Shown here: in pieces, positions 2,895 to 33,660 of the stretch
Numbering within the stretch: the first letter of the stretch is position 1
How the letters are laid out: each line of letters begins with the position of its first letter
Source of the DNA: Acidobacteriota bacterium
GTDB taxonomy: Bacteria; Acidobacteriota; Terriglobia; Terriglobales; Acidobacteriaceae
DNA: 33,775 nt
Assembly: GCA_021793405.1 (NCBI GenBank)
Contig: JAJYSV010000046.1
Coordinates: forward strand, 1-33,775
Direction: 5' to 3'
Program-made: the position numbers and the translations under genes
Notes under the pieces: generated by a model
The model's database searches: none
What the model was told of the DNA's origin: nothing
What the model saw: the letters and a program-made list of their open reading frames with translations, nothing else

Positions 2895-3190
2895 GCCACT
2901 TCTCCTACTAGTGTAGAGGGTGACAAAACGACCCCTCACCCCGAGCAAAGCGAAAGGACTCGATAAAAGCCAATGCACAGATTCTTCGCGGAATATTTGC
3001 TGGAAGAGATTTTTGGGGTGGCCATCCAGAAGACTCATCAAACCCGCTGGCCTCCCGGAAAGGGGATGGTGGCTGAGTCAGCCTTCGACCTCGACTAAGT
3101 ATCTGAATATCACGCCATCAGATTATAAGAGCCACAACCCAAACAACTGTCAAGAGTTAGATTGTGCCTCTCCTGCTTTCAAAAAATCTC
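2895..3190. other. Intergenic region after aceE, no gene seen
   Basis: About 300 bases between aceE and the sugar-acid operon promoter. Short open frames here have no recognisable content. A CCCCGAGCAAAGCGAAAGGA-type stretch near 2939 resembles the short intergenic repeats seen elsewhere in the window. I see no convincing intrinsic terminator for aceE. Confidence 0.4.
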
Positions 3191-3243
3191 TTTACAATCT
3201 GCACTCACTTCCATATGATCGCGTCATATGATGGTATGATATC
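3191..3243 (+). promoter_or_regulatory. Sigma-70-type promoter overlapped by a palindromic operator
   Basis: TTTACA at 3191-3196 and TATGAT at 3214-3219 are separated by 17 bases, a good -35/-10 pair. The -10 lies inside a perfect inverted repeat, CATATGA (3212-3218), 5-base spacer, TCATATG (3224-3230). TATGAT recurs at 3227-3232 and 3235-3240, and GGTATGATATC resembles operators of GntR/FCD-type sugar-acid regulators (family knowledge). A repressor bound here would block the polymerase. No regulator gene is adjacent, so the binding protein is unknown. The site lies just upstream of the bicupin start at 3254 and probably controls the whole 3.2-9.1 kb operon. Confidence 0.6.
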
Positions 3244-3253
3244 TAAGTTGAGG

Positions 3254-4084
3254 ATGTTAGCTTTGAATCAGCACGAAAGCCGGGAGCACATCTTCTCTGG
3301 ACATTGCGCTTCCATGAAACAGAGCCCGCCGGGCGTGGCGCTCCGAACATTTGCGTCGAGCGCATGCGGAGCGCGAAACTTCTATACCGGCACAGCGACT
3401 TTTCTACCCGGAGCGACATAACCATTGCACACGCATCAGGTCAGTGAGGCTGTTATTGTTCTCGAAGGTCATGCCACAGTGTTTGTTGAAGGTAGGAGAT
3501 ACCGTCTCAGTCCGTTGGATAGCCTTCATATTCCCGCTTTAATTGCTCACAGTGTTTGGAATGACGATCTGGATTCCGCCATGATTGCACATTCCACGTT
3601 CGCCGAACCGCAGCCGACCAGAGCCTTTACAAGCCAGGCATTCGACGTGCAGCATCGTGGCACCAATATCCCCACCGGCCCGGAGTATCTCCGGAGATTC
3701 GAGACGAGCGAAATCTACGAGTTGGCAGATGGAGCAGTTTTTTGTGATCTCTTTGCAAAACGATTCGGAGCTGTTGGAATCTGCGGTGGATATGGACGTT
3801 TTCGTCCAGGGTCTTCTCTTCCGTGCCACGTACATAAATTTGACGAGTCGATCACCATTGTGACCGGCGAGGCTCTTTGCCAGGTGCAGGGCCAGGAATA
3901 CAAGCTTAGCGGATACGATACTGCTTTTGTTCCTGAAGGCCGTGCTCACCGTTTCTTCAACGTCTCGGAACAACCGATGGCCATGATTTGGGTATATGCG
4001 GGTGACGAACCGGACAGGACTCTTGTGGATGCGGGCTACTGCTCAGGCTCTATTTCAAACTCGGAGGACAGTCGGATCGATTAA
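3254..4084 (+). pseudogene. Bicupin-domain protein interrupted by an in-frame stop
   Basis: Two cupin barrels, probably a cytoplasmic sugar or sugar-acid binding or isomerising protein of the operon; exact reaction unknown. Reading one frame from ATG 3254 gives MLALNQHESREH through FYTGTATFLPGAT, then TAA at 3419-3421, then in the same frame PLHTHQVSEAVIVLEG. The conserved first-cupin motif (G-X5-HXH-X3-4-E) runs straight across the stop, so the stop looks like a point mutation within one gene, not a gene boundary. The second cupin motif is LPCHVHKFDESITIVTGEA. Without the stop the product would be 276 residues. A TTG at 3425 could restart translation but would lose the first strands of cupin 1. 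It is followed 21 bases later by the aldehyde dehydrogenase gene. A sequencing error or recoding of the stop cannot be excluded from sequence alone. Confidence 0.75.
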
Positions 4085-15108: not shown

Positions 15109-15356
15109 TGGTGATTCTCCAGGAGGAAGTAGAAAGTCAAGGATACAGCAATGCGGTCGAGAATCCATGAAGAACAACCGCAAGGTCCTTCCCCTTCATT
15201 TCGTTCAGGGTCAGGACGACAAGTTTCGATCCCACCCTAGCCGGTCGCCGCGGCGACGACACGGCGAGGATTGATGGGATAAGGACGAAGGCTTCTACGA
15301 TGAAGCAGTAGTTTTTGGTTGAGGACCATGAGCTGCTGGATCAGGAGAAGCCTTCA

Positions 15357-16458
15357 ATGAAAATTATAGGATGTGATTTTCATCCGAGTTGGCAACAGGT
15401 GGCGGTTTTCGATGCGGAGACCGGCGAAGTGACGGAACGGAAGTTGGTCAATGGCGATGGCGAAGCGGAGCGGTTCTATCGCGAGCTGGAGGCGCCGGCG
15501 CTGGTTGGAGTCGAGGCGTGCGGCAACAGCCAGTGGTTCATCGATTTGCTCGAGCGGCTGGGTCACCAGGTGTGGGTCGGGGATGCGGCCCAGATTCGTG
15601 CCAGTGGAGCCTGCCCTGAGCTTGCCGAAGGGTGCGCAAGCAGAAGACCGACAAGCGCGATGCATCGCACATGCTGAAGCTGCTGCTGGAGGGGCGGTTT
15701 CCGCGCTTGTGGACGCCGAGTGCGGAGCAGCGCGACCTGCGCCAGTTGTTGGTGCATCGGCACAAGCTGGTGGAGATCCGGACGCGGGTGAAGAACGGAT
15801 TGCAGCATCTGGCGCTGAACCGCGGGGTGCAGAAGAAGAGTTCCCTGTGGAGCGTTCGGGGGAGGGCTGAGTTGGAAAGACTTCCCTTGGATGGCTGGAC
15901 GGCGCGGCGGCGAAAAGATTTGTTGCGGCTGCTGACGGAGTTGGATCGGCAGATCGGCGAACTGGACAAAGCGGTGGGCGATGCGGCGGAGCAACACGCG
16001 CAGGCGCGGCTGCTGATGACGCAGCCGGGCGTGGGTCCGATTACGGCGCTGGCCTTTGTCTTGACGATCGGGGAGGTAAGCCGATTCAAGCACAGCAAGC
16101 AGGTGGCCAGCTACCTGGGACTGATACCGCGCGAGCATAGCTCGGGCGGTATCAGCGGCTGGGCGCGATCACCAAGCAGGGCAACCGGTTTCTGCGCCAG
16201 TTGCTGGTGGAAGCGGCGCAGAGCGTGACCCGGCTGGATGAGGGATTTCGCAAGCAGTATCAGGCTCGTTGCCACCACAAGCCGAAGGGCGTGGCCAAGG
16301 TGGCGGCGGCCAGGAAGTTGGCAGTGCGACTCTACTGGATGTTGCGGCAGAACGTTGGTTATCCAGAGATCGCCCATATCGAGAGCAGCCCGCGGGTGGC
16401 CCTGGTCGGCGAAAACCAGACCGAAGGATTGATTGGGCGCTCTCGCATCCAGCAGTAG
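15357..16458 (+). pseudogene. IS110-family transposase with two frame disruptions
   Basis: DEDD-type recombinase (RuvC-like N-terminal domain plus Transposase_20 C-terminal domain). ATG 15357 has AGGAG 9 bases upstream. Frame one reads MKIIGCDFHPSWQQVAVFD, with the acidic VGVEACG, to AAQIRAS. A 26-base insertion at 15607-15632 then shifts the frame. Frame two resumes at VRKQKTDKRDASHMLKLLLE and runs through MTQPGVGPITALAFVLTIGE and SYLGLIPREHSSGG. A one-base loss near 16150 shifts again, and frame three continues with RLGAITKQGNRFLRQLLVEA to the stop at 16456-16458. Repairing both would give a product of about 358 residues, normal for the family. All pieces are on the plus strand and collinear, so this is one dead gene. 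Confidence 0.9.
15607..15632 (+). repeat. 26-base short-repeat insertion inside the transposase
   Basis: The inserted unit contains AGCCTGCCCTGAGC and GCCGAAGGG, a repeat type found in intergenic DNA of many bacteria. GTG occurs at both edges (15604-15606 and 15632-15634), consistent with a 3-base target duplication. A related copy in inverted orientation lies at 19335-19357. Confidence 0.75.
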
Positions 16459-16635
16459 GCTGGATGTCCGCATGGAAGCATCATGGTTGATGTTGTAGCC
16501 GTATCGATGGTTGGTGGGGCGTAATTGCCCGCCGTTTGGTGATGCAGCGTGAATCTACCGGAGCTCTGGTCCTCAACCTCTCTGGAAAGACAAGCGGTGC
16601 TCACGCACCGCACAGGCGATCTGTGCCTTGACAAC
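16459..16635 (+). ncRNA. Candidate bridge-RNA region of the IS1111-like element
   Basis: About 177 bases of non-coding DNA lie between the transposase stop and the right outer inverted repeat. A strong hairpin, GCGGTGC (16594-16600), loop TCAC, GCACCGC (16605-16611), is visible, along with a GGGC/GCCC stem near 16517-16532. IS110-family recombinases use an RNA encoded in the element's non-coding end, on the 3' side in the IS1111 group (established knowledge). That this element still makes one is inference. No promoter is obvious. Confidence 0.35.
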
Positions 16636-16722
16636 GCCTTCGTCCTTATCGAGGGGCACCCGGCGTAAATCGAAGTAGATCGAGATGTTATGCAGACGAC
16701 AGGCAGGCCTATCGGTGCGAGA

Positions 16723-19180: not shown

Positions 19181-19242
19181 CCCCAGGGGCTAAAGCCCGC
19201 ATTTTTATTGGTCTTTCTTCGGCACGACTGAAGTCGTGCCCT
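19181..19242 (+). repeat. Intergenic repeat of the 'CAGGGGCTAAAGCCC' family, copy 1
   Basis: CAGGGGCTAAAGCCC (19184-19198) is followed ~22 bases later by a GGCACGACTGAAGTCGTGCC hairpin (19221-19240). The same two-part design occurs at 33603-33660. Confidence 0.8.
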
Positions 19243-19334
19243 GTTACAAAGCGGTTTTGTCGAGTCTGGAGTACTCGGACATTCGTTTTGTAGTGATCGA
19301 TAAAGCTGTATTTATTTTGGAGCTTTTGTGGACA

Positions 19335-19357
19335 CTTCGGTGGGCTCAGGGCAGGCT
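19335..19357 (-). repeat. Second copy of the short repeat that broke the transposase
   Basis: Read on the minus strand this is AGCCTGCCCTGAGC, then CCACCGAAG, matching 20 of 23 bases of 15608-15630. With AGCCTGTCC at 19364-19372 it can also form a GGGCAGGCT hairpin. Confidence 0.7.
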
Positions 19358-33602: not shown

Positions 33603-33660
33603 CAGGGGCTAAAGCCCTGGGGATTTTCATCCATTTACGGCACGGCTGAAGCCGTGCCCT
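33603..33660 (+). repeat. Intergenic repeat of the 'CAGGGGCTAAAGCCC' family, copy 2
   Basis: CAGGGGCTAAAGCCC (33603-33617), a short spacer, then GGCACGGCTGAAGCCGTGCC (33639-33658) and CT. It is the partner of 19181-19242, with compensating stem changes (ACGACT...AGTCGT versus ACGGCT...AGCCGT). Bases 33661-33775 hold no gene I can support. Confidence 0.8.

Follow-up and report, generated by a model that had tools for sequence, protein, structure and literature searches.

The small dispersed repeats (SDRs) of Nostoc and its relatives, which Elhai et al. reportedly described in 2008, are elements of 21-27 nt for which no mover is known, and their reported targets include other repeats as well as copies of the SDRs themselves. 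Other short elements are known to interrupt genes or to serve as landing sites: passages of PMC3733652 describe short palindromic repeats, such as the RPE of Rickettsia and other REPs, that are inserted inside genes, as well as REPs that are inserted within palindromes in T. roseum and other organisms, while insertion sequences (ISs) landing in REPs are mentioned in the same source and are reportedly the subject of a 2006 BMC Genomics paper. Here, we describe a 24-nt repeat that interrupts a transposase gene in an acidobacterial draft genome. By analogy, its best reading would be that of a very small mobile repeat like the cyanobacterial SDRs, which appear to be its closest analogues in size and behaviour, and it is filed here as a new member of this SDR-like kind, not of a sequence family.

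The DNA that was analysed is a stretch of 33,775 nucleotides (the window), which is contig C40 of a draft genome totalling 4.6 Mb in 137 contigs. It contains a broken copy of an IS110-family insertion sequence at 15270..16664 (plus strand), the extent of which was taken from what it has in common with other copies in blastn alignments (L061/L044, L064, L065 and L015). The host gene encodes an IS110-family transposase, with both the DEDD_Tnp_IS110 (PF01548) and the Transposase_20 (PF02371) domains found by Pfam. Its nearest intact copy (L061, the same as L044), which is 96% identical to the window copy and comes from a genome of the same genus (G066), matches PF02371 with an E-value of 3e-29 and PF01548 with an E-value of 4.8e-15. 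In the window, the list of open reading frames (ORFs) gives a 5' piece of this gene (MKIIGCDFHPSW...QIRAS) at 15357..15605 (plus strand), whose 83 residues are 100% identical to those of L061 and which matches neither PF01548 nor PF02371 in Pfam on its own. A middle piece (VRKQKTDKRDA...) is then found at 15632..16150 on the same strand, according to the ORF list and to alignments, and extends up to a second lesion near 16150, where one base is missing in the alignments; the downstream transposase piece matches both Pfam families. Considering this missing base together with the insert, the window copy has at least two frame-breaking lesions. Relatives of this transposase are mostly found in acidobacterial MAGs, and a search for the IS110 DNA in plasmids gave no match.

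Several side observations concern the surroundings of these IS110 copies. By eye, they often adjoin half-palindromes (for instance at window 15270 and in L009, L015, L019-L025, L045, L050, L052 and L080) of the type CCCACTCAAGCC..GGCTTGAAT or CCCATGTCTC..GAGACAT, and their far side reads GGGGCACC in the few right ends that were printed. Many of the distinct left flanks resemble half palindromes, again by eye, and the IS110 element of the window may be one that targets REP-like palindromes, which would make it similar to the ISs landing in REPs mentioned above; this similarity concerns the IS and not the 24-nt unit. Just upstream of the IS, the sequence CCTTCATTTCGTTCAGGGTCAGGACGACAAG at 15195-15235 looks like a further dispersed repeat that somewhat resembles the 24-nt unit. 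Several contigs of the source draft end at the IS110 element.

A first-pass annotation of this DNA had singled out 26 bases at 15607-15632 as a mobile short repeat, and these bases are present exactly as it described them: they interrupt the conserved QIRAS/VRKQKTDKRDA stretch and the ORF list shows that the reading frame is shifted. The dispersed unit that they contain, AGCCTGCCCTGAGCTTGCCGAAGG, is 24 nt long and lies at 15608..15631 (plus strand), as found by an exact pattern match and with borders taken from an excision grid over 117 copies that is presented below. The related copy that had been claimed at 19335-19357 was confirmed as well, since pattern matches located a second and diverged unit copy, AGCCTGCCCTGAGCCCACCGAAGT, at 19334..19357 on the minus strand, between GGGGACAGGCTTCAGCG and GTCC. 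As for the edges of the insert, GTG is indeed present on both sides (15604-15606 and 15632-15634), but these are not the 3-base target duplication for which they had been taken. Among the loci collected, 20 of 20 distinct intact IS110 copies with the motif read AGY-TAY-GTR, encoding Ser-Tyr-Val, without an insert. The pattern used for this count demanded exactly one residue between the Ser and the Val, other lengths being uncounted; with a wider pattern of 1-45 bases, nothing but the TAT form and the insert turned up. At this place, L061 reads GCC AGC TAT GTG CGC without the insert, and the window reads GCC AGT GG[AGCCTGCCCTGAGCTTGCCGAAGG] GTG CGC, so that the AGT-GG-[unit]-GTG junction of the window (15604..15634, plus strand) can be compared with the intact form base by base. 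The right GTG is the ancestral valine codon (GTA in three intact copies) and the left GTG is made of AGT plus a new G, the ancestral TAT being lost. A target duplication is thus ruled out, as only the right GTG is ancestral and as TAT has been replaced by GG plus 24 nt. The net gain at the window site is 23 and not 24 bases, and the rule of exactly 24 nt that emerges from other copies fits this site only with the extra change of TAT to GG. The insertion itself was not refuted: we searched for the possibility that all copies of this transposase contain the sequence, and intact relatives were found without the unit.

Looking beyond the window, searches were carried out with the unit, whose consensus is AGCCTGCCCTGAGCTTGYCGAAGG, and with the same unit read backwards as a control. 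With up to 3 mismatches, the 4.6 Mb of its own genome gave 2 matches, both in the window, versus 0 for the control; when at most 1 mismatch was allowed, matches were present in 25 of the 60 family genomes (own genome included), versus 1 of 60 for the control. The occurrence of the unit is therefore above chance. Two further places in its own genome share the first 14 bases of the unit, one of them in a GGCACGGCTTCAG repeat. Across the phylum, the exact 24-mer was found in 10 of 396 genomes, with 9 of 44 inside the family and 1 of 352 outside of it. These data also showed that exact copies are patchy between close relatives: in genus g35, only 3 of 21 genomes have one (6 copies in G034, 8 in G642 and 1 in G263), and a genome without an exact copy can have a near copy (G256). 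Elsewhere, 29 stretches of viral contigs carry the exact unit pattern, tandem copies were seen at two loci (L133 and L136), and one apparent case of self-nesting was found in G006 (L161), where the unit lies in a reverse copy of the unit. The window had no match in Rfam at gathering scores, and no paper on the 24-nt unit was recognised in the open-licence PMC literature, where searching for the sequence gave either nothing or papers with titles on unrelated topics.

The unit was also seen in a second IS110-type gene, which belongs to another genus (L113/L158; G006 C7 134226-134249) and where it occupies another codon. It preserves the frame of this gene but adds an in-frame TGA, and IS110 relatives with CACAAGCTGGTG at the same insertion place exist.

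To see how the unit joins its hosts, 117 copies with their flanks were collected from 112 loci, which were mostly the best matches of earlier searches; copies with identical 15-nt flanks were merged, which makes a single entry of the window copy and the G066 copy (L125), and tandem matches that overlapped were combined as well. The flanks of these copies are diverse and many of them are, by eye, halves of other repeats; many of the hosts look palindromic. The two flanks of each copy were then joined into a 20-mer that was sought elsewhere, with up to 2 mismatches, in 1.4 Mb of collected stretches. When exactly 24 nt were removed, such an empty site was found for 35 of the 117 copies (32 of 117 when shifting one base further left), the other 82 having none in this 1.4-Mb pool. 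In the excision grid of 49 start/end offsets, the seven offsets that remove 24 nt scored 12, 22, 32, 35, 20, 13 and 12, compared to 0-14 with a median of 2 for the other 42, and a control with mispaired flanks gave an empty site for 8 of 117 copies. When the commonest host type (left flank ..CGAAG) was left out, 24 of 102 copies still had an empty site, and a looser version of the test gave 46 of 117 versus 23 of 226 for mispaired flanks. In G034 alone, mispaired flanks matched as readily as the true ones, with 166 matches in 30 pairs, and for this reason the test relies on the wider pool alone. Copies that share one host within a genome, which is the case for most of those of G034, are not independent.

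Examples of empty sites are GGTGCCCCAG^GTCTCG, GTCGAAG^GACCTGCATT, GACAGCCGAG^GGCGGCTGTC and AGCGACGGGC^GTCCCC, and no target duplication was seen at empty sites beyond a one-base ambiguity. Of the 117 copies, 63 sit at AG^G and 102 have a G on the right, the latter figure being biased upwards by search patterns that contained this G. In the one orthologous spacer that was compared, G063 and G064 both carry the unit and the spacer of G062 is rearranged, which shows retention of the unit and not a clean empty site. Altogether, at the sites with an empty counterpart, these comparisons showed exactly 24 additional nt and no target duplication. The view of the insert as a mobile short repeat is thus borne out in that a short dispersed unit is present in a transposase gene whose intact relatives lack it and in that empty sites indicate a precise insertion into unrelated contexts.

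We also compared how the insertion sites may fold. Joined empty sites fold at a mean of -15.1 kcal/mol, versus -13.2 kcal/mol for mispaired joins (standard deviation of the mean 0.24), and 694 shifted control windows fold at a mean of -9.3 kcal/mol. A test of the duplex between left and right flanks was flat (-13.4 versus -12.8, with a standard deviation of 0.28 and 10 of 117 copies beyond the 5% threshold), and a spanning stem of at least 4 pairs was about equally frequent in empty sites (88 of 117) and in control windows (501 of 694). The preference of the unit for hairpin repeats is therefore moderate and not proven, and a selective loss of insertions in genes could add to it.

These features can be set against those of the described systems. 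With its 24 nt, the unit falls within the size range of SDRs, and it is dispersed in many contexts, as the 117 collected copies illustrate, with a precise insertion supported by the empty sites; it differs from SDRs in that it has no known sequence likeness to them and comes from another phylum. Like the RPE, it is a short repeat found in coding sequence, but it is only weakly palindromic, is 24 nt long, shifts the frame in the window and brings an in-frame TGA in G006. It is short and dispersed like the GTAG/CGTC REPs and the REPINs, as these are presented in parts of PMC3733652 and PMC3116915, but, unlike REPs and REPINs with their RAYTs, it has no GTAG/CGTC tag, and its exact copies do not follow the distribution of Y1_Tnp genes among the tested genomes. 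Another likeness, with E-values near 0.01, is found in CCCTGAGCTTGTCGAAGGG repeats of a Comamonas plasmid (L378 3001-3022) and of a Sphingobium plasmid (L379 3001-3025), whose core of about 19 nt is identical to the unit and matches at 7 places per plasmid; this core follows GTTCG in the plasmids, whereas that of the unit follows AGCCTG (one place read per plasmid). The unit also lacks the traits of a classical cut-and-paste transposon or MITE, as no inverted ends were seen in it and as empty sites show no duplication beyond a one-base ambiguity.

The first-pass annotation had also presented the window as an insertion caught in the act, and this is contradicted by what is found in other copies of the element. 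Among the loci collected, the unit is present at this codon in 3 distinct IS copies versus 20 intact ones: the window copy, a truncated IS on contig C58 of G064 (taken as JA1.bin47) and a copy on contig C185 of G066 (taken as YS5.bin43). All three have the altered AGT-GG junction in common and their left flanks are all different, indicating movement of the IS copies that carry the unit, presumably in trans. As a side observation, the G066 copy (L073, about 2914-3282) is a MITE-like deletion derivative of the IS of ~370 bases with the unit inside; it keeps the left end of the IS and a right end of 79% identity. Over the ~556 bases at 15330-15885, the window differs from the intact L061 only in an island around the unit, no difference being found at 15330-15595 or at 15662-15885. 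The smallest patch that explains this island, from an alignment with L061, L062 and L073, lies at 15596..15661 (plus strand) and consists of T15596, T15605, the unit and T15661. Its letters agree with both other unit-bearing copies (L062 of G064 and L073 of G066), those of L073 having been read from the flank alignment, as the main alignment gapped this copy at two places. Left of 15553, the window shares only 90% identity with the G064 copy, compared to 99.6% with L061, and when separate trees were built for the left and right parts of the IS, the tree of the left part grouped the window with the intact L061 and not with the other unit-bearing copies. The junction shared by two diverged copies and the island relative to L061 thus speak against a recent event, and the island suggests that the patch was probably exchanged. 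The simplest reading of these alignments would then probably be a single old insertion, with a short patch exchanged between IS copies. This reading rests on three substitutions and the unit; since L015 also has a T at two of the three positions (15596 and 15661), the patch may have been either gained by the window or lost from L061.

What moves the unit can be discussed from the same data. HUH transposases use hairpin targets and join DNA without target duplication, so that the hairpin-rich targets of the unit and the absence of a duplication would fit a REP that a RAYT or another Y1 (HUH) transposase joins to single-stranded hairpin DNA. Y1_Tnp matches are indeed common, being found in 9 of 10 and in 18 of 20 genomes tested, and the unit's own genome has seven, some of which belong to genes that were called RAYT by eye. 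Some units even lie close to such matches: one in G063 at 1.3 kb, three of six in G027 at 0.8-1.9 kb (C18:48688, C18:54039 and C17:43169), one in G150 (C13:56738) at 0.4 kb from a Y1_Tnp copy with an internal stop and, in the unit's own genome, a 14-base partial relative (L004) at 2 kb from a Y1_Tnp fragment. However, this closeness may simply reflect that REPs, which are frequent hosts of the unit, gather near Y1 genes, and exact copies of the unit do not follow Y1_Tnp from genome to genome: in G034, ten units (with up to 1 mismatch) were found but Y1_Tnp has no match, the eight exact units of G642 are accompanied by one match, and in genus g35 Y1_Tnp is found in 13 of 15 tested genomes that lack the exact unit, one of the other two (G256) having a near copy. 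Only 2 of the 30 Y1_Tnp loci fetched (from 61 matches in ten genomes) contain the unit, both at ~1.3 kb, and 0 of the 7 loci of its own genome, with up to 1.5 kb of flank, contain even CCTGAGC. One of these seven genes (in L007) instead adjoins a different REP, the palindrome GGCACGACTGAAGTCGTGCC (L007 1907-1926), which is also found in the window at 19221..19240 as an element distinct from the unit; a variant, GGCACGGCTGAAGCCGTGCC, was seen at window 33639-33658. Moreover, neither a GTAG nor a CGTC tag is present at the ends of the unit, which forms only a weak hairpin of about -3.8 kcal/mol. A RAYT, one of the enzymes that the first-pass annotation had proposed to look for, is thus a poor fit as far as tested, as exact units do not track Y1_Tnp genes: it is disfavoured and probably not the mover, and we consider a Y1-type mechanism quite unlikely.

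It could also be that no dedicated enzyme is needed, if template switching or gene conversion among hairpin repeats made the copies and the unit spread with the turnover of these repeats. Empty sites that fold better than mispaired joins, the resemblance of the 3' half of the unit to a common host repeat (CCTGAGC..GTCGAAGG) and the patch exchange seen in the IS110 element itself all point in this direction, but template switching without homology does not predict that exactly 24 nt would be removed across unrelated hosts, which makes such copying a possible but not a likely source of the repeat. IS110-type recombinases, which target similar palindromes in the genus, might otherwise deposit or mobilise the unit occasionally. 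IS110 elements join without long duplications and some members insert into REP-like palindromes, which would be compatible with such a role, and one kind of host repeat contains both an IS copy (L015, at GGGTGCCCC^ATGTCTC) and the unit (at GGTGCCCCAG^GTCTCG). Their join points nevertheless differ by about 2 bases, the unit has no likeness to the IS ends in an alignment inspected by eye, and many of its hosts were not seen as IS110 targets, so that we regard a role for these recombinases as very improbable. An insert that would not exist in the organism, arising by mis-assembly or by chance, is harder still to believe: repeats could be mis-joined in a 137-contig draft in which several contigs end at the IS110 element, but the same insert and junction are found in the assemblies of two other genomes.

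Altogether, we favour, with some reservation, the explanation that this acidobacterial family harbours a non-autonomous dispersed repeat of 24 nt and that the insert represents one of its copies. According to this explanation, a single insertion would have hit an ancestral copy of the IS110 element, and defective IS copies bearing the unit may then have been moved in trans by intact copies, as their three different flanks suggest, with gene conversion possibly carrying a patch from one IS copy to another, in whichever direction. The unit itself would have been moved in trans by a candidate enzyme, probably not a local RAYT, that makes precise joins without duplication and favours hairpin DNA. 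Of the first-pass interpretation, the short dispersed repeat that interrupts a gene thus remains, whereas the target duplication, the timing and probably the RAYT do not. More tentatively, the unit may rank among the smallest mobile DNAs: a system other than a RAYT or any known transposase, perhaps acting through RNA, would join it base-exactly to hairpin DNA at AG^G, with no duplication of the target. We hold this as a possibility only.

The window itself is of modest use, being a broken IS110 copy with a shared and inherited lesion. The part worth following is rather the exact 24-nt joins, mostly at AG^G, that are found across unrelated hosts. To our knowledge, the mechanism by which non-coding DNA pieces of 20-30 nt spread is still open, and the sharp borders of this unit, its target and its copy-number differences between relatives make a search for the enzyme feasible, by genome comparison combined with an assay.
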